Notes under the pieces: model-generated | The model's database searches: none | Seen by the model: only the letters and a program-made list of their open reading frames with translations | What the model was told of the DNA's origin: nothing | In this document: positions 54,878-62,861 of the stretch, one piece after another | Position numbering within the stretch: the first letter of the stretch is position 1 | Layout of the letters: each line of letters starts with the position of its first letter | Translations under genes and position numbers: made by a program | Source: Clostridium sp. Cult3 | GTDB taxonomy: Bacteria; Bacillota; Clostridia; Tissierellales; Tepidimicrobiaceae | Assembly (NCBI RefSeq): GCF_021655115.1 | Contig: NZ_PPXY01000008.1 | Span: 1-64,000, forward strand | Length of the DNA: 64,000 nt | Direction of reading: 5' to 3'

Positions 54878-55765
54878 ATGAAAAATGCGAAAATTATATG
54901 TAATCCATCTTCTGGGAGACAAATTATCCAAAGAAAGATAGATTATTTGATCAGCTTATTAATAAACGAAGGCTATACTGTATCTAAATTTAATACTGAA
55001 AAAAAAGATGATGCGATGCTAGAAACAATAAAATCCTGCAATGAGGATTGGGATTTTATTGTAGCATGTGGTGGAGATGGCACAGTAAATGAAGTAGCAA
55101 AGGGCATTACGAAAAGTCAAAGAAAACTTCCTGTAGCTATCCTTTCAGCTGGTACAGTTAATGATTTTGCGAATCATATGGGATTGCCAAAAAACATGGA
55201 TGAATTTTTCCAAATGATTAAAAATGAAAATATAAAGGATGTTGATTTGGGGAAAGTAAATGATGAGTACTTTGTGAATGTGGCAGCTAGTGGGCTTTTA
55301 ACTAATGTAGGCTATCAAGTACAACCTGAGGCCAAGGCTTTGTTAGGGAGGATGGCCTACTATATCGAAGGGATTAGGGAGATTCCCAAACAAAAATTTG
55401 AACCCTTTAGGGTGTGTTTTGAGTCTGAAGAATACACAAAGGAAGAAGATATTCTGCTTTTTTTAATATCCAATAGTGCTTCAATAGGTGGTTTTAAAAG
55501 GCTAGCTCCCGATGCTAGTGTATCTGATGGGTACTTAGATGTGGTTATAATTAGAAAATCAGAGGTGGGGGATTTGGCTCAAATATTCATTAATATATTC
55601 AAAGGTGAACATGTACATCATCCAAATGTTAAATACTTTAAGACTAAAAAGCTTAAAGTTCATACAGAAGAGGAGATTACGATAGACATAGATGGTGAAT
55701 ATGGAGGTGTATTGCCAGCAGTCTTTGAAGTTATTTCTAATCAGTTTAAGATATTTGTACCTTAG
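54878..55765 (+). CDS. Diacylglycerol-kinase-family lipid kinase (DgkB/YegS-like)
   Basis: A 295-aa soluble lipid kinase. KIICNPSSGRQIIQRK opens the fold, the nucleotide loop GGDGTVNEVAKG lies near residue 68, and PVAILSAGTVNDFANHMG follows, as in DgkB, YegS and BmrU. The C-terminal lobe has SDGYLDVVII. Such enzymes phosphorylate diacylglycerol or related lipids at the membrane and recycle lipid head-group turnover products. It is probably co-transcribed with the GDPD gene. The ribosome site is weak (AAAGGTTGATG). Confidence 0.88.
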   Translation: MKNAKIICNPSSGRQIIQRKIDYLISLLINEGYTVSKFNTEKKDDAMLETIKSCNEDWDFIVACGGDGTVNEVAKGITKSQRKLPVAILSAGTVNDFANHMGLPKNMDEFFQMIKNENIKDVDLGKVNDEYFVNVAASGLLTNVGYQVQPEAKALLGRMAYYIEGIREIPKQKFEPFRVCFESEEYTKEEDILLFLISNSASIGGFKRLAPDASVSDGYLDVVIIRKSEVGDLAQIFINIFKGEHVHHPNVKYFKTKKLKVHTEEEITIDIDGEYGGVLPAVFEVISNQFKIFVP

Positions 55766-55866: not shown

Positions 55867-56310
55867 TTGAAGGGAAAAAACCTATGTGAAAGTGTAGCTG
55901 GTATTGAAAAACATTTAAGGAGAATTGATTATATTATCAGATTAAAAGGTAGGGAAATATTGAAGGATTTTAATATTACAATACCCCAATTTACTGCATT
56001 GCAAATTCTTATCTATAATGGAGATTTGACTATTGGAGAATTAAGCCAAAAGATGGGATTAGCATGCAGTACTATTACAGATTTAATAGACCGAATGGAG
56101 AACAATCAATTAGTAGTAAGAAAAAAGGATCAAAAGGATAAAAGAGTTGTTAGGATAGAGGTTTTACCTATTGGATACGAAATCGTAGAAAAGGTGCTAG
56201 AAGAAAGAATCCGATTTTTAGAATCAAAGATGAAAGGATTATCTGAACAAGAAAAAGCTGCCTTAGATGAAGGACTTGAATCTTTATACAATGTAATGAA
56301 ACAGAACTAA
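55867..56310 (+). CDS. MarR-family transcriptional regulator
   Basis: A 147-aa winged-helix regulator. The DNA-binding core reads LTIGELSQKMGLACSTITDL, then IDRMENNQLVVRKKDQKDKR as the wing, with a helical dimer region at both ends. The start is TTG 55867 behind GGAGGAG. It lies 60 bases before the giant sensor gene and may share a transcript with it. Its ligand and targets are unknown. Confidence 0.9.
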   Translation: MKGKNLCESVAGIEKHLRRIDYIIRLKGREILKDFNITIPQFTALQILIYNGDLTIGELSQKMGLACSTITDLIDRMENNQLVVRKKDQKDKRVVRIEVLPIGYEIVEKVLEERIRFLESKMKGLSEQEKAALDEGLESLYNVMKQN

Positions 56311-56375
56311 AATAATTATTTAGTGTACCTTTCCATCGATTATCAAACAATTTCAAGGAATAAAGGGGAATGGCT

Positions 56376-59300
56376 ATGAAGTTAATAGACAATAGATACA
56401 AGGTTGATAAAGTTTTAGAAGACTCCCTATATGGTAGTATTTATAAAGTGACGGATTTTTGGGATAATGATAAGGAGTTACTCATGAAGCTTTATAATAG
56501 TGAAAAACAAGGGAATGTTATCTCCTATTTTACCGAAAATTTTATAACCTTATCTATGATAGAGCATAAGTTCTTATTAGCTAGTGGCCAATTCAATATA
56601 ATAAAAACCATAGATAGGAAAAAGGTAAACATTAAACAATATTACTCAACGATGGAGTATACGGAAGCACCAAGCCTTGATGAAATCAATATGGAATTAA
56701 GCTTAAAGGATAGATTAAATATAATACTACAGATATGTACTGTTTTAGATTTTATACACCATAGAGGATTAGTGTATAAATATTTAAGTCCTTCAAATAT
56801 ATTTTTATTGGAAGATATGAGTATCAAGATAATGGATTTAGCAACTATATATGAAAGAACTATTAATAAACACTATGACGATTTAACCAGATATTTTATA
56901 GCTCCGGAAGTACTATTGGAGCACGAAGATACAGTTGATATAAATGCAGACAAATATTCTCTAGGAATGATGTTCATATATCTTTTTGCGGAGAATTTCT
57001 ATAGTTTTGACGACAGCCAGATTAAATATAAAGACCATTTCCATCTAGATGATGGACAATTAAAATTTTTAGACAATACTATAATCAATTTAACTAGAAA
57101 AAATCCAGCAACTAGAAACTGTTCTCTAAGGGACATTATCCAAGATATCAATAAGATATTTCATATGAACTATAGATATGATCTGGTTAAAGAAAGAGGT
57201 ATATTAAATTTCCAAACTAAAATAGTTGGAAGGGAAAGGGAAATAGATACTATTCTTTCTATTGATGAGAACATTTTTAACAATAAATATAATAATAAAT
57301 TGGTATTGGTAAAAGGTGATACTGGATTAGGTAAAACTAGATTTTTAAAGGAAATTAATTATATATTGAGGATGAAAGGTAGGGATGTTTATCAGACAGA
57401 GATTATTGAAAATGACAATATGGCATTGAAGCCTATAGAAAATATATTGCGTCAAACCGTCAAAGATACACCTAGTCACATAATGAGTAAATATGGCAGG
57501 GAACTGGCTAGGATCCTACCAGAATTAAAATATATGCTAGATATAGAATCCTATCCTACTATAGGAGAGGACAGGGAAAGATTAAGATTATTTGATAGGA
57601 TAACTAGCTACTTAGAGGAATTTTCTAAAGACAAACCCATCTACCTAATCATAGATGATGTAGATAATTGCGATCTTCAGTTTTTATTTTTATTGGACTT
57701 TATCTTCAAGTCATTAAACAAGGGTAGTATAGTGCTGATATTGGCCTTTAATGAAAACAAGATCCCTGATAATTCTATTGAAGAGGATATTATCAATAGA
57801 TGGAACAATCAGCAAGAGGTAGAAAAAATAAGAATTACCAATTTGGGTCTGTCGGAGATAGGTGAGTTTATTCAATATATATTGGGAATAAGCTATAAAC
57901 CCTTGAAATTTTCCGCAGTTATGCTAAAAGAAAGTCAAGGAAATCCAAGATATATTGAGTATATGATGAAGGACATGTATGCAACGGAGGAGCTATATTT
58001 GAGCTCAGAAGGCTATTGGGAAATAAAAACTCAGAAGTATTCAGATATTTACTTTCCATCAAGTATGGATGAAGTATTGAATAGCCAAATTCATCGTATG
58101 AAAAGGGAGCACCGAGAAATTCTAGAAATCATATCCATATACAATAGTTCCATCTCAAAGAATACTTTGCTAAGTACGTTGGATATGAATAGGGATGAAA
58201 TAAACAACAACCTAAAAGAACTTGTTACAATGAGATTGCTAGATGAAAGAGTTGCCGATTGGGGTTATAGTTATAGTATAATAAATGTTCAACTAAAGCG
58301 TCTCATCTATCATCAGATCCCACAAGAAGAAAGGATGCGTCTTCATAGCAAAGTAGCTAAGCTATTAGAAGATAGCTATTCTAGTGATCTTAGTCCAATA
58401 TTAGATGAGCTGGCCTATCATTTGATGTCTTCAAACCAGAAGGGAAAAGCCTTAGAATATATAGTTAAGGAGGCTGAGAGGCTTGGTGTCTATAGTTCTC
58501 AATCTACGATTCTATGGGAAGAGGCCTATGAAATAGCAAAGGGACAGGATTCTGAATACAAGTTAATAATTTTAGAGAATCTTGGAAAAGTCTATTCCAT
58601 TAGGGGACAAAATGATAAGGCATTAACCATTTATAAGGAATTATTTGAATATGGACAGAGATTAGGAAAGCTTGAACAGTCTATTGCTGCAAGAATTGGA
58701 ATAGGAGATATACATCTAAAGAGAAACTATACAGATTTAGCATTAAAAGAAGCTGAAGCAACTATGGAACTATCTAAGAAACATAATTGTGTGGATAAAC
58801 TAGTCCAATCCTCCATACTATATAATAAAATACTATTAGACAGCGGTAAATTTGATGAAGTAAAAAGTAATATGAGGGAGCTGCTGGAAACAAGTCTTAA
58901 CAATGGATTGGATAAACATTTAGGAAATATATTTAATCTTATGGGACTAAGCGAGTACTATATAGGAAATTTGGATAAGGCGATTATTAATTATGAGAAG
59001 AGCATTGAATGTTTTAAGCAGACGGAAGATTTTATAGACTCAACTAAACCTATGAATAATATAGCTAATATATATTCCCAACACGGTGAAATATCAAAGG
59101 CCATGGAGTATTATGAAGAGGGATTGAATATAGTTGAAAGATATGGAGTTCTAAATGCAAAGCTGTTTTTTTTGAATAATATAGGATCTATTTATGTAAT
59201 GATCCATGATTATGAAAAGGCAAAAAAGTATATAGAAGAAGCTAGGACGACAGCCATTGAAGTAGAAGATGCCAATGTAGAGTTTTTGACTAATATAAAT

Positions 59301-61763
59301 TTAGGTTTAATACATTTATATATTGGAGACTATGAGCAAAGCTATAATTATTATACAGTGTTAAATGAGAAATATTCCAGTAACAAAGGGTTTAGTTATG
59401 AAGTAACCAGTTATTACTATAATTTTTTAGGTGAATTTTATTATATCTTTGGAAAATGGGATAAAGCCCTAGAGTATACCAATAAATCTATTAGAGCTTA
59501 TAAGGATTTTAATACTGTAGAACTATTAGTGTCAAAGGCTAGGATTATTTTAATTCGGTACTTTATGGATGGAATATATGATAAGGATTCTATTGAGGAG
59601 TTAAGATCAGAATTAAAGGATAGAAAATTGAATTATGATAGAAGGGATGCTTTAATTAATATGGCTATTATCCCTTATTTAGAAGCTGACTATGAATTTT
59701 TATTGGACATTCTAGAGGAGGATATTGAACTTAAGGAAAAGTACTCAGCTCCTATGTTAGATTATAAGAACAAGATATTATTATATGGTATGGGCTATGA
59801 TGAGTACAGCTTTGAAAATTTAATAAAAGTACAGGAGAATATGAAAAAACACCATTTGGCCCACATAGATATGTATGCAAACATCCTTTTAGGGTTTAAA
59901 TTTTCTAAAGATAACAAACCTTATCAAGCAATAAACTATCTATTAGAAGCTTTAGATCTAATATATAGGTTAATCAAGAATATCCCAGATAAAGATCTTC
60001 AGATGAGCTATATTAAAAAACATATGGGGGACGATATTAAACGTAAAATAGCTGAAACAATCAATAGAAACTTAGGTGTAGAAGTAGATTGTGTTTATCT
60101 GGATGATATAGTTTTAGAGAAGAATATTGAAGGATATTTTGACTATAGGTCCCTAATTAGTTTGATAGATGAAGATGACTTTAGAAGGATTACGGAACTA
60201 AGCTATCCTTCTGATGAAATTGGGGATATTGCCAATATAGAAACCATGATGTCAAAATTGACATCGGATTATGAGTATAATATAAATATTATACTTAAGT
60301 ATCTAGCAAAGGAGACCTTAGCACAAAAGGGATATATATTGATTTACGATGAGGAAAAGAGAAAATATTTGCCTACTGCTAGCTTAGACGATAATTTGAA
60401 CTGGTTGCCTAATGAAAATTTATTATCCCTTGCAAATAGATATGAAAGAGGAATATTAATCAATAACAATCTGCAGCCTAATATCGTGGGACTATATAGG
60501 GAGTTTCTCCCTAGAGATACTAGAGCATTAATTTGCATCCCAATTATGGCAATTAAAGGGGAAAATACTTTTTTAGAACGAGAGCGGCGACAAAAACAAG
60601 GGTTTAGTAGTCAAAGGATTGAAGGGTACATATATTTAGAAACCGGTAGAGTATTTAATCGATTCGATAATAAAAGATATAAATTAGCCAACTCATTATC
60701 TCAAGTACTATATATAAACATAGAAAACTATAAATTGAAAATATTATCAACCATCGATAAATTGACTGGTACCTACACTAGGAAATATTTTGAATCTGAA
60801 TTTAATAGAATATTTGATGAAGCTAGACGAAATGATGAAACTTTTGCCTTGCTTATGTTGGATATAGATAGGTTTAAAAACATTAACGACACTTATGGTC
60901 ATAGAAAAGGGGATGAAGTTTTAAATAAGATGGGGCAATGTCTCATGAAAGGCGTTAGAAAGACGGATGTAGTAGCTAGGTATGGAGGAGAAGAGTTTAT
61001 AGTAATCCTTAGAAATGTCAACCGGAAAGAAGCTGTAAATATTGGAGAAAAGATCAGAACTAATATCCAGAGCATTAGGATTCCTGGCGTAGAGGACTCT
61101 ATCACCGTAAGTATTGGGATATCTCAATTTCCAAAGCATAGCCAATTCAAAGAGGAATTAATAGAAAAGGCTGATCAAGCATTATACAGTGCAAAAGAAA
61201 AAGGCAGAAACAGAGTTAAAGTTTGGGGTACACATTTAGACAACACTTTGAACAGAGTAGATAGATTGGCAGGTATATTGTCTGGAAATATTAATCAAGA
61301 CCAAAGAAATATATTAGCATTATTAGATGTTATAGATCTAACTAAAGGCAATATGAAAAGAGATGATAAGATATTCGAATTTTTAGGTAGACTAATAGAA
61401 ACTGTGGAAGGGGAGTTTGCTACTTTAATAGAACTAGATGAAAACAATAAACAAAAGAACATTTATTCCCGTTCTAGACTAAATCAAGAATGGGTATGTC
61501 AACCTATAATAAATCAGATTATAGTAGAAAGGGTTATTGCCAACAGGAAAGGTGAATTTTTAATAGATTGGGATAGTATATATGATACGGATTTAGTATT
61601 AGAAACTCCTAATTGGCAATCGGTTATTGTTTTACCTATAGAATTTGAAGGGGAGATCAAGGGGATAGTTTATATTTCAGTGCCATTAAGGGAAAAGGAG
61701 TTTGACTACAATTATTATAATATGGCTAAAGCATTGTGTGGTATTGTTTCAGCTATGATATAG
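56376..61763 (+). CDS. Pseudokinase-AAA-TPR-GAF-diguanylate cyclase-GAF giant sensor
   Basis: A 1795-aa cytoplasmic protein. Residues about 6-265 are a Ser/Thr kinase fold, with a lysine in ELLMKLYN and the DFG region as MDLAT, but HRDLKPxN reads YKYLSPSN, so the catalytic aspartate is missing. Residues about 285-640 are an AAA/STAND ATPase (Walker A GDTGLGKT near 315, Walker B IYLIIDDVD near 425). Residues about 690-1150 are TPR-like repeats (YYIGNLDKAIINYEKSIECF). A GAF-like domain spans about 1270-1450. The GGDEF domain follows (about 1460-1620), with GGEEF near 1537 and an inhibitory RxxD five residues before it. A second GAF ends the protein. It should make cyclic di-GMP under control of its input domains. 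ATG 56376 follows AAAGGGG. Confidence 0.85.
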   Translation: MKLIDNRYKVDKVLEDSLYGSIYKVTDFWDNDKELLMKLYNSEKQGNVISYFTENFITLSMIEHKFLLASGQFNIIKTIDRKKVNIKQYYSTMEYTEAPSLDEINMELSLKDRLNIILQICTVLDFIHHRGLVYKYLSPSNIFLLEDMSIKIMDLATIYERTINKHYDDLTRYFIAPEVLLEHEDTVDINADKYSLGMMFIYLFAENFYSFDDSQIKYKDHFHLDDGQLKFLDNTIINLTRKNPATRNCSLRDIIQDINKIFHMNYRYDLVKERGILNFQTKIVGREREIDTILSIDENIFNNKYNNKLVLVKGDTGLGKTRFLKEINYILRMKGRDVYQTEIIENDNMALKPIENILRQTVKDTPSHIMSKYGRELARILPELKYMLDIESYPTIGEDRERLRLFDRITSYLEEFSKDKPIYLIIDDVDNCDLQFLFLLDFIFKSLNKGSIVLILAFNENKIPDNSIEEDIINRWNNQQEVEKIRITNLGLSEIGEFIQYILGISYKPLKFSAVMLKESQGNPRYIEYMMKDMYATEELYLSSEGYWEIKTQKYSDIYFPSSMDEVLNSQIHRMKREHREILEIISIYNSSISKNTLLSTLDMNRDEINNNLKELVTMRLLDERVADWGYSYSIINVQLKRLIYHQIPQEERMRLHSKVAKLLEDSYSSDLSPILDELAYHLMSSNQKGKALEYIVKEAERLGVYSSQSTILWEEAYEIAKGQDSEYKLIILENLGKVYSIRGQNDKALTIYKELFEYGQRLGKLEQSIAARIGIGDIHLKRNYTDLALKEAEATMELSKKHNCVDKLVQSSILYNKILLDSGKFDEVKSNMRELLETSLNNGLDKHLGNIFNLMGLSEYYIGNLDKAIINYEKSIECFKQTEDFIDSTKPMNNIANIYSQHGEISKAMEYYEEGLNIVERYGVLNAKLFFLNNIGSIYVMIHDYEKAKKYIEEARTTAIEVEDANVEFLTNINLGLIHLYIGDYEQSYNYYTVLNEKYSSNKGFSYEVTSYYYNFLGEFYYIFGKWDKALEYTNKSIRAYKDFNTVELLVSKARIILIRYFMDGIYDKDSIEELRSELKDRKLNYDRRDALINMAIIPYLEADYEFLLDILEEDIELKEKYSAPMLDYKNKILLYGMGYDEYSFENLIKVQENMKKHHLAHIDMYANILLGFKFSKDNKPYQAINYLLEALDLIYRLIKNIPDKDLQMSYIKKHMGDDIKRKIAETINRNLGVEVDCVYLDDIVLEKNIEGYFDYRSLISLIDEDDFRRITELSYPSDEIGDIANIETMMSKLTSDYEYNINIILKYLAKETLAQKGYILIYDEEKRKYLPTASLDDNLNWLPNENLLSLANRYERGILINNNLQPNIVGLYREFLPRDTRALICIPIMAIKGENTFLERERRQKQGFSSQRIEGYIYLETGRVFNRFDNKRYKLANSLSQVLYINIENYKLKILSTIDKLTGTYTRKYFESEFNRIFDEARRNDETFALLMLDIDRFKNINDTYGHRKGDEVLNKMGQCLMKGVRKTDVVARYGGEEFIVILRNVNRKEAVNIGEKIRTNIQSIRIPGVEDSITVSIGISQFPKHSQFKEELIEKADQALYSAKEKGRNRVKVWGTHLDNTLNRVDRLAGILSGNINQDQRNILALLDVIDLTKGNMKRDDKIFEFLGRLIETVEGEFATLIELDENNKQKNIYSRSRLNQEWVCQPIINQIIVERVIANRKGEFLIDWDSIYDTDLVLETPNWQSVIVLPIEFEGEIKGIVYISVPLREKEFDYNYYNMAKALCGIVSAMI

Positions 61764-61853: not shown

Positions 61854-62861
61854 ATGTCAGCAACGATAAAGGATGTAGCAAAGCTGGCTGGAGTATCTAT
61901 ATCTACAGTATCTAGAGTAATAAACAATTCTAAGCCCGTCAGTCCAGAAGTACGAAGAAAGGTAATAGATGCTATAGACGAACTTGGATATAAGCCTAAT
62001 CAGGTTGCAAGGAGTCTAGTTACTAAGAAATCAAATCTAATAGGAGTAATAGTGACGGATATTGGAAACTCTTATATAGCACAGATGATACGTGGAATAG
62101 AAGAAGTGGGACGAATGTACAACTACGATATTCTTTTATCTAGTAGCTACGGAAGCCCAAAAACAGAAATGAAATTTGCAGAGCTATTAAGAAGTAAACA
62201 AGTTGAGGGAATCATATTAATATCTGAAACTATCAATAAAGAGGTGATAGCTCAGATAGAAGGTTTTAATATACCTTTTGTATATCTAAACAAATTCTAC
62301 AGGATTTTAAATTTACCCTCTGTATCAATTGATAATTATGAAGCAGGTACTATGATGACAAGGTATCTATTGGAACTAGGTCATCAAAATATACTATATA
62401 TAACATCCAACGAAGATCAATCAGGATCAGTAGAAGAATATAAGATAAAAGGATATAAGAATGCTATGAGAGAGTCGGGAAAAGATGAGTTAATACTATC
62501 AACAGAAGATTGTACCATAGAAGATGGATATAATGTAGGAGATACTTTAAGAAGACTGATGGAACAAAAAGGTGTAACAGCAACATTTTGCTGTCAGGAT
62601 GAAATAGCTATAGGTCTTATCAACTATTGTTATGATAACAATATAAAAGTTCCAGAAGACATATCCATATGTGGGTACGGAGATACTAAAATTGCTTCCG
62701 TATATAGACCAGGCCTTACTACCATTAAGGAACCCTATTATGATATAGGTGCAGTTGCCATTAGAAGAATCATCAAGGAATTAGAAGGTGAAAAAATAGA
62801 GGAAAATAACACTCTTTTACCAATTCAGATGATTGAAAGAGAAAGTTGTAAGGGCATTTAG
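61854..62861 (+). CDS. LacI-family regulator (CcpA-like)
   Basis: A 335-aa regulator. The N-terminal HTH reads TIKDVAKLAGVSISTVSRVI followed by the hinge helix PNQVARSLVTKKSN. The periplasmic-binding-protein-like sensor domain follows (IGVIVTDIGNSYIAQMIRGI). It has the length and style of CcpA and related clostridial regulators, but I cannot assign CcpA itself. The effector is probably a sugar or phosphosugar. It has its own extended -10 promoter and AGAGGTGG ribosome site. Confidence 0.9.
   Translation: MSATIKDVAKLAGVSISTVSRVINNSKPVSPEVRRKVIDAIDELGYKPNQVARSLVTKKSNLIGVIVTDIGNSYIAQMIRGIEEVGRMYNYDILLSSSYGSPKTEMKFAELLRSKQVEGIILISETINKEVIAQIEGFNIPFVYLNKFYRILNLPSVSIDNYEAGTMMTRYLLELGHQNILYITSNEDQSGSVEEYKIKGYKNAMRESGKDELILSTEDCTIEDGYNVGDTLRRLMEQKGVTATFCCQDEIAIGLINYCYDNNIKVPEDISICGYGDTKIASVYRPGLTTIKEPYYDIGAVAIRRIIKELEGEKIEENNTLLPIQMIERESCKGI

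Follow-up and report, generated by a model that had tools for sequence, protein, structure and literature searches.

A described group resembling the protein analyzed here is that of the CP1 pseudokinases, which are fused to a COG3899 ATPase and carry GAF or PAS domains (O'Boyle et al. 2025, PMC12599244). According to this review, about 40% of CP1 members are pseudokinases, every one of which is fused to COG3899; the group is reported mainly from cyanobacteria and proteobacteria and shows mixed activity, and bacterial pseudokinases are described as largely unexplored experimentally (PMC12599244). The review also covers pseudokinases with other chemistry and scaffold pseudokinases, for example, EssB/YukC. 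A 1,826-aa protein of Clostridium thermocellum, comprising a kinase, six TPRs, and a GGDEF domain, appears in an excerpt of a survey from 2005 (PMC1262709). In Candida Chk1, as outlined in an excerpt of the source, kinase-like, AAA_16, and GAF domains precede a histidine kinase, and deletion of the first two impairs function (PMC9069115).

A gene for a protein of this general type was found in the window, that is, the whole stretch of 64,000 nucleotides of Clostridium sp. Cult3 DNA that was analyzed. Like CP1 proteins, its product combines an N-terminal kinase fold with a predicted ATPase, which may be of the COG3899 type, and GAF domains and has no transmembrane region; of the joining of a kinase fold to a COG3899 ATPase that characterizes CP1, the window protein shows AAA_16 and TPR_MalT, as seen with Pfam models only. 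Unlike CP1, the window family belongs to Bacillota (Tissierellia), nearly all of its kinase heads are dead, and its output domain is GGDEF; the terms GGDEF and c-di-GMP had 0 occurrences in the review text (PMC12599244). The Clostridium thermocellum protein shares the kinase head, the TPRs, the GGDEF output, and a similar length, but in the excerpt it is treated as a kinase, and it was compared with the window family by description alone (PMC1262709). The "trifunctional" kinases of the fungal Chk1/Mak2/Mak3 type likewise place a kinase-like domain, AAA_16, and GAF before the output domain, but the output of these kinase-AAA-TPR-GAF proteins is a histidine kinase, and two of them (L208 and L209) have a canonical HRD motif. 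Proteins of the PknK and MalT-type STAND class resemble the window protein in having an ATPase with Walker A and GNP motifs and a TPR-like sensor region (matched by TPR_MalT), but instead of producing c-di-GMP they act on transcription or as kinases. Among the papers listed in searches of an open-access library, none dealt with the fusion of a pseudokinase to GGDEF, and none contained all five domain terms. The layout itself is not new, being a variant of the kinase-COG3899/AAA-TPR-GAF-output proteins. What is new is a dead-kinase lineage that spans the order, keeps its synteny, and is linked to c-di-GMP, together with an extra GAF domain after GGDEF.

The open reading frame (56370-61763, forward strand) is intact and free of internal stops; its product has 1797 aa if translation starts at the first ATG and about 1,795 aa if it starts at the ATG at 56376. 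The latter start, which had been chosen in a reading of the sequence only, is the better one, since a ribosome-binding box AAAGGGG lies about 7 nt upstream of it, a spacing that fits 56376 better than 56370, and the proteins of relatives open with MKL. Residue numbers given here count from 56370, and 2 should be subtracted for the 56376 start. The features of the locus are collected in Table 1.

Table 1. Features of the locus identified by sequence analysis or structure prediction, in window coordinates.
Feature	Position	Strand	Evidence
Diacylglycerol-kinase-like gene (DagK), conserved neighbour	54878..55765	+	ORF list; synteny
MarR-family regulator, directly upstream, conserved neighbour	55867..56310	+	ORF list; synteny
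Whole gene, pseudokinase-AAA/STAND-TPR-GAF-GGDEF-GAF, predicted diguanylate cyclase (first ATG alternative 56370)	56376..61763	+	Pfam; box spacing; full-length colinear relatives
Kinase-fold (pseudokinase) domain, residues 3-265	56376..57164	+	Pfam Pkinase; AF2 model; VIA against kinases
VAIK-type Lys40, kept	56487..56489	+	Alignment; 46/62 relatives
Degenerate catalytic loop YKYLSPSN, Tyr138 (56781-56783) at the HRD-Asp position	56775..56798	+	Alignment; Asp in 1/62 relatives
DFG-type Asp156 (MDLA), kept	56835..56837	+	Alignment; 46/62 relatives
AAA_16/STAND-type NTPase and the helical region after it, residues 283-700	57216..58469	+	Pfam AAA_16; conserved Walker A, GNP
Walker A, GDTGLGKT	57315..57338	+	Sequence, within the AAA_16 region
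TPR array, residues ~701-1250, putative input/sensor region	58470..60119	+	Pfam TPR_12, TPR_2, TPR_MalT
First GAF-like domain (weak sequence match), residues 1290-1455	60237..60734	+	GAF_2 14.5 bits; model aligned with DcsBis 4zmu
GGDEF diguanylate cyclase domain	60750..61214	+	Pfam; VIA against solved GGDEF domains
Product-inhibition (I-) site RKTD	60957..60968	+	RxxD in 50/51 motif-bearing family GGDEF domains
GGEEF active-site motif	60984..60998	+	51/53 family GGDEF matches: 49 GGEEF, 2 GGDEF
C-terminal GAF domain after GGDEF	61398..61760	+	GAF_2 below cut-off here, above it in ortholog L096
LacI-family regulator, directly downstream, conserved neighbour	61854..62861	+	ORF list; synteny

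The domain order proposed earlier, kinase, AAA, TPR, GAF, GGEEF, and GAF, was recovered with Pfam. Matches above the cut-offs were obtained for Pkinase (residues 21-258, 63.5 bits, cut-off 31.7), AAA_16 (residues 285-457, 45.2 bits, cut-off 32.6), TPR_12, and GGDEF (residues 1461-1615, 161.7 bits, cut-off 23.8), and in NCBIfam the GGDEF region matched the model of a diguanylate cyclase domain with 178.7 bits (cut-off 37.4). Both GAF domains scored below the GAF_2 cut-off of 28.6 in the window protein, the N-terminal one with 14.5 bits and the C-terminal one with 17 or 21.9 bits, depending on the scan; the C-terminal domain exceeded it in the Ornithinibacillus ortholog (38.2 bits). A model over the first GAF and GGDEF aligned with the diguanylate cyclase DcsBis (4zmu) over 282 residues with an rmsd of 11.1. 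DcsBis also has a sensor domain directly before GGDEF, but it is small (338 residues in the chain) and contains no kinase, ATPase, or TPR. In the fold comparison of the C-terminal GAF, the PDB matches listed were all taken up by GGDEF. STAND NTPases are recognized by a GxP motif, and the window protein has the AAA_16 P-loop with Walker A, a GNP motif (residues 524-526), and the subsequent TPR repeats. In the alignment, G316, G319, G321, K322, and G524-N525-P526 were invariant in 23/23 rows.

The catalytic loop of the kinase-fold domain reads Y136-K137-Y138-L139-S140-P141-S142-N143, and Tyr138 occupies the position of the HRD aspartate, the absence of which had been noted from the sequence. K40 and D156 of the MDLA motif are kept, also in agreement with that reading, while two of the three glycines of the glycine loop (EDSLYGSIY) are gone, and Asn57 is found in place of the αC glutamate. 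A substitute catalytic aspartate elsewhere in the loop, named earlier as an observation that would speak against a pseudokinase, was sought at residues 128-148 of the window protein, and none was present. The structure prediction that had been proposed along with an HMM scan gave a confident kinase fold (AF2 model of 283 residues from 19 aligned sequences, pLDDT 89.7, pTM 0.88). Its VIA Z score was 23.3 to WNK3 (244 residues, 3.0 Å) and 20.6 to S. aureus PknB, and all 50 Foldseek matches listed were protein-kinase structures. The model places the catalytic loop, as expected, between a long helix (110-129) and a strand (142-144; model numbering is the residue number minus 2). The domain thus combines a modeled bilobal kinase fold with the loss of a canonical catalytic residue, as in pseudokinases, and judged by its residues it is very probably catalytically dead.

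When 150 genomes from the order of the window were searched with a profile of the kinase and AAA regions, 62 gave a match (E<=1e-30), two of these (G069 and G098) through AAA-only matches in shorter frames. Named carriers include [Clostridium] ultunense, Tissierella simiarum, Sporosalibacterium faouarense, and Acetoanaerobium noterae, with outlying copies in Ornithinibacillus massiliensis and Treponema putidum. Among relatives from the same family, 17/19 matched over more than the kinase fold, the exceptions being G006 and G013. In a sample of the phylum, 6/398 genomes matched (E<=1e-60), two of them from the order of the window. Another two (G188 and G230) have the same GAF-GGDEF-GAF tail as the window family; the kinase head of G188 is dead, and the catalytic loop of G230 is lost to a contig edge. 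In the last two (G251 and G259), the HRD motif is canonical and the tail resembles a histidine kinase.

Residues were counted in the 62 relatives of the order, the window excluded. The HRD aspartate is missing in 61 of them and present in one (L182), which has no DFG aspartate. Aspartates near the loop occur at positions 142 (10 rows), 137 (2), 143 (2), 147 (4), and 148 (12). With the same alignment model, the HRD aspartate was found in 20/20 ordinary Bacillota kinases used as a control. It was also present in 43/48 aligned domains from other loci. Of the five domains without it, Ornithinibacillus and Treponema putidum contribute two copies each, and the fifth is from L098, a record of Tissierella apparently identical to L194 (G145) among the 62. 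By these alignments, the loss of the HRD aspartate is a property of the whole lineage and not of the window protein alone, and the pseudokinase prediction of the sequence-only reading is supported.

An unconventional but still catalytic domain would bind nucleotide via K40 and D156 and transfer phosphate with another base, or would catalyze a different reaction of the kind known from SelO and SidJ, for example, AMPylation or glutamylation. The retention of K40 (46/62), D156 (46/62), and N143 (43/62), jointly as "K--ND" in 26/62 relatives plus one that also has the αC glutamate, is consistent with such chemistry, and pseudokinases with other activities exist, as the review indicates (PMC12599244). 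However, the glycine-loop glycines are mostly gone in the relatives, the αC position is Asn in 41 and Glu in 12 of the 62, and the lysine and the DFG aspartate have each been lost in 16/62 while the gene was retained, so that no active-site set is common to all rows. We therefore consider a catalytic domain unlikely. Nor does the presence of K40 and the DFG aspartate imply ATP binding, because the glycine loop and the αC glutamate are degraded as well; their persistence in most relatives could reflect retained nucleotide binding or unrelated chemistry.

The pseudokinase domain is under purifying selection: its dN/dS in seven pairs of relatives was 0.073-0.240, compared with 0.070-0.144 for AAA and 0.038-0.163 for GGDEF in the same pairs. 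Its constraint is somewhat looser, since its value was the highest of six domains in 3/7 pairs (two with L051, and L050-L172). Per-position conservation of the kinase blocks was about that of the AAA blocks, except for residues 201-250. These data bear on the notion that the pseudokinase is a functionless relic heading for loss, the remainder being a normal STAND diguanylate cyclase. The degradation of all catalytic motifs, the tolerance of the lineage for the loss of Lys and Asp, and the top dN/dS values in three pairs would fit a relic, but dN/dS remained far below 1 in every pair, N57, Y136, G133, and P141 are conserved, and 22 of the 23 relatives examined at full length had frames longer than 1,700 aa (817 aa in G010), which makes a relic quite unlikely. 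Since the domain was kept through the evolution of the whole order despite its catalytic loss, a role in regulation or docking is probable.

Some frames are short, broken, or split. Only 999 aa are covered by the frame in G133 and in Tissierella simiarum (L161/L089), and an in-frame TAA lies near the gene start in G012 (L036). In Treponema putidum (L103:6001-12253), the first copy consists of two overlapping ORFs, pseudokinase-AAA-TPR followed by GAF-GGDEF-GAF, and next to it lies a broken second copy with its own pseudokinase ORF. Because of the frames of G012, G133, and Treponema putidum, the gene is not indispensable everywhere. In one genome, a pseudokinase frame of 270 aa (L199; G066:C2 ~1625457-1626155) stands alone, and a full-length copy is present at another locus.

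In a tree based on AAA only, 32 dead-family rows fell on one side of a branch with SH-aLRT 99, L118 having been dropped before counting, which is in line with a single origin of the family. When L118 was included in a mixture-model tree, this active-looking row was placed among the dead ones (branch 2.78), and the dead L206 stood beside the active side. A fast tree put the Treponema (L103), Acetoanaerobium (L200), and L096/L053 group rows on the active side with weak support of 76; rows with several matches were merged column-wise in that tree, so that L119, L123, and L125 may combine different modules. Two kinase-AAA-TPR-GAF proteins of other Bacillota, L235 and L236 (G294 and G168), have HGGIKPKN and HGGIKPHN at the catalytic loop. 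They lack the HRD aspartate and form a separate pair on the tree, outside the family, and within the wider group the aspartate was therefore lost at least twice, independently.

A diguanylate cyclase output had been regarded as unusual for such proteins, which was not supported. Kinase-AAA-TPR-GAF proteins with canonical HRD motifs and GGDEF occur in Bacillota (L234 and L238) and Actinomycetota (L127, L156, and L160), in addition to the 1,826-aa protein of Clostridium thermocellum (PMC1262709). The idea that only dead kinases are combined with a GGDEF output was likewise rejected. Among 111 rows, in which the HRD state was taken from one alignment column and histidine-kinase outputs were assigned by eye rather than scanned, 54 were dead with GGDEF, 37 active without it, 14 dead without it, and 6 active with it, L182 being one of the 6. 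Rows with low kinase or AAA coverage and the duplicates of G-series entries (L081-L095 and L098) were left out of this set. The 14 dead rows without GGDEF comprise 10 family rows with frames cut by contig ends, ends of the fetched stretches, or breaks, L184 with GGEEY, and the non-family rows L235, L236, and L239.

The GGDEF domain of the window protein keeps the GGEEF motif, the substrate and metal motifs FKNIND and GHRKGD, and the inhibitory RxxD site (RKTD), the last of which had been recognized as intact before. VIA Z scores of its model to solved GGDEF domains reached 25.0. GGDEF matches were found in 53/62 family ORFs; of the two that lack a GG(D/E)EF motif, L184 has GGEEY and L194 is cut. 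The protein is hence predicted from its motifs to be a c-di-GMP synthase, as the earlier assignment of a diguanylate cyclase output had it, and the label "c-di-GMP sensor" given to it at the same time should be dropped, c-di-GMP being the predicted product. The domain could instead serve as a c-di-GMP receptor or scaffold acting through RxxD, a site present in 50/51 motif-bearing domains, but GGEEF, FKxxND, and GHxxGD are kept as well, and receptor-only GGDEF domains are usually without GGEEF; this makes a non-synthetic role highly improbable.

The genome of the window strain contains the following components of c-di-GMP signaling: two GGDEF genes (one being the window gene and the other encoding a 481-aa protein with GGDEF), one EAL gene, one PilZ gene, and two c-di-GMP-I riboswitches. 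One riboswitch (G000:C5:85818-85909; L246:2819-2910) lies in a type IV pilus cluster just 5' of a pilin-like ORF, the pilin motif having been identified by eye. The second (L245:4308-4394, reverse strand; G000:C15:35307-35393) is preceded by an ORF that ends in LPKTG and followed by a transglutaminase-like one, both named by eye.

The adjoining genes are not c-di-GMP genes. The order DagK-MarR-X-LacI-HutH, where X is the gene in question, was observed in most of 38 loci, several families of the order among them, and this conserved neighborhood suggests vertical inheritance. The usual context is missing in G008 and L096; as these two also cluster in the tree, they suggest that a second subgroup of greater mobility exists. 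In Ornithinibacillus massiliensis (Bacillaceae; L096:5992-14102), two tandem gene copies stand outside the usual neighborhood, which looks like transfer.

The neighborhood also bears on a possible role in phage defense, in which a STAND protein would sense infection and answer with a cyclic dinucleotide. PADLOC reported weak similarity of the kinase part to the mad6 (66.2 bits) and PD-T4-6 models. However, these matches are confined to the kinase fold and extend neither to the whole protein nor to a defense context, the conserved DagK, MarR, LacI, and HutH surroundings are unlike those of mobile defense genes, and the GHxxGD and GGEEF motifs of ordinary c-di-GMP enzymes are kept. The chance that this is a defense protein is therefore slight in the extreme.

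The best reading, to which we assign a probability of about 0.6, is that of a predicted diguanylate cyclase of the STAND type whose regulation involves a kinase-fold domain without catalytic activity. GGDEF domains must dimerize for c-di-GMP synthesis, and STAND oligomerization and a sensor role of TPRs are known from families such as MalT. By analogy with MalT-like STAND proteins and scaffold pseudokinases like EssB/YukC, we infer the order of signaling, the oligomerization, and the role of the pseudokinase as follows. The protein would be cytosolic, and its TPR array and/or GAF domains would read a signal, either a ligand or a partner protein. ATP binding by the AAA_16/STAND module would then lead to self-association, bringing two GGDEF domains together, with the RxxD site providing product feedback. 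The N-terminal kinase fold would transfer no phosphate; as a fixed domain for regulation or docking, it would keep the STAND module inactive or offer it to a partner. The c-di-GMP formed may act via the single PilZ protein and the two c-di-GMP-I riboswitches of the genome. A more specific version, which we put forward as speculative and rather doubtful, makes the pseudokinase itself the signal receiver: having lost catalysis once and early in the lineage, it would be an allosteric module that uses its former ATP cleft to bind a nucleotide, a metabolite, or a partner and thereby switches the STAND ATPase that assembles GGDEF dimers. In that case, there would be a dedicated pseudokinase-gated c-di-GMP pathway, present order-wide and built on one of the only two GGDEF enzymes of the cell.

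For the STAND-type cyclase with a regulatory pseudokinase, the value of the system lies in a dead kinase fused in fixed order to a c-di-GMP output; as this output is easily assayed and the genome has only two GGDEF genes, the signaling role of the dead kinase can be tested directly. Should the STAND module be under the control of the pseudokinase, kinase-fold allostery would be linked to second-messenger synthesis; if the pseudokinase exerts no control, the protein would be a well-conserved, ordinary member of a known multi-domain group.

One genome of the same family (G006, 99% complete) has two c-di-GMP-I riboswitch matches above the gathering score, and in a scan of this genome GGDEF, EAL, PilZ, and an ortholog of the window gene were all absent. 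Its riboswitches are possibly orphans or respond to a different ligand.
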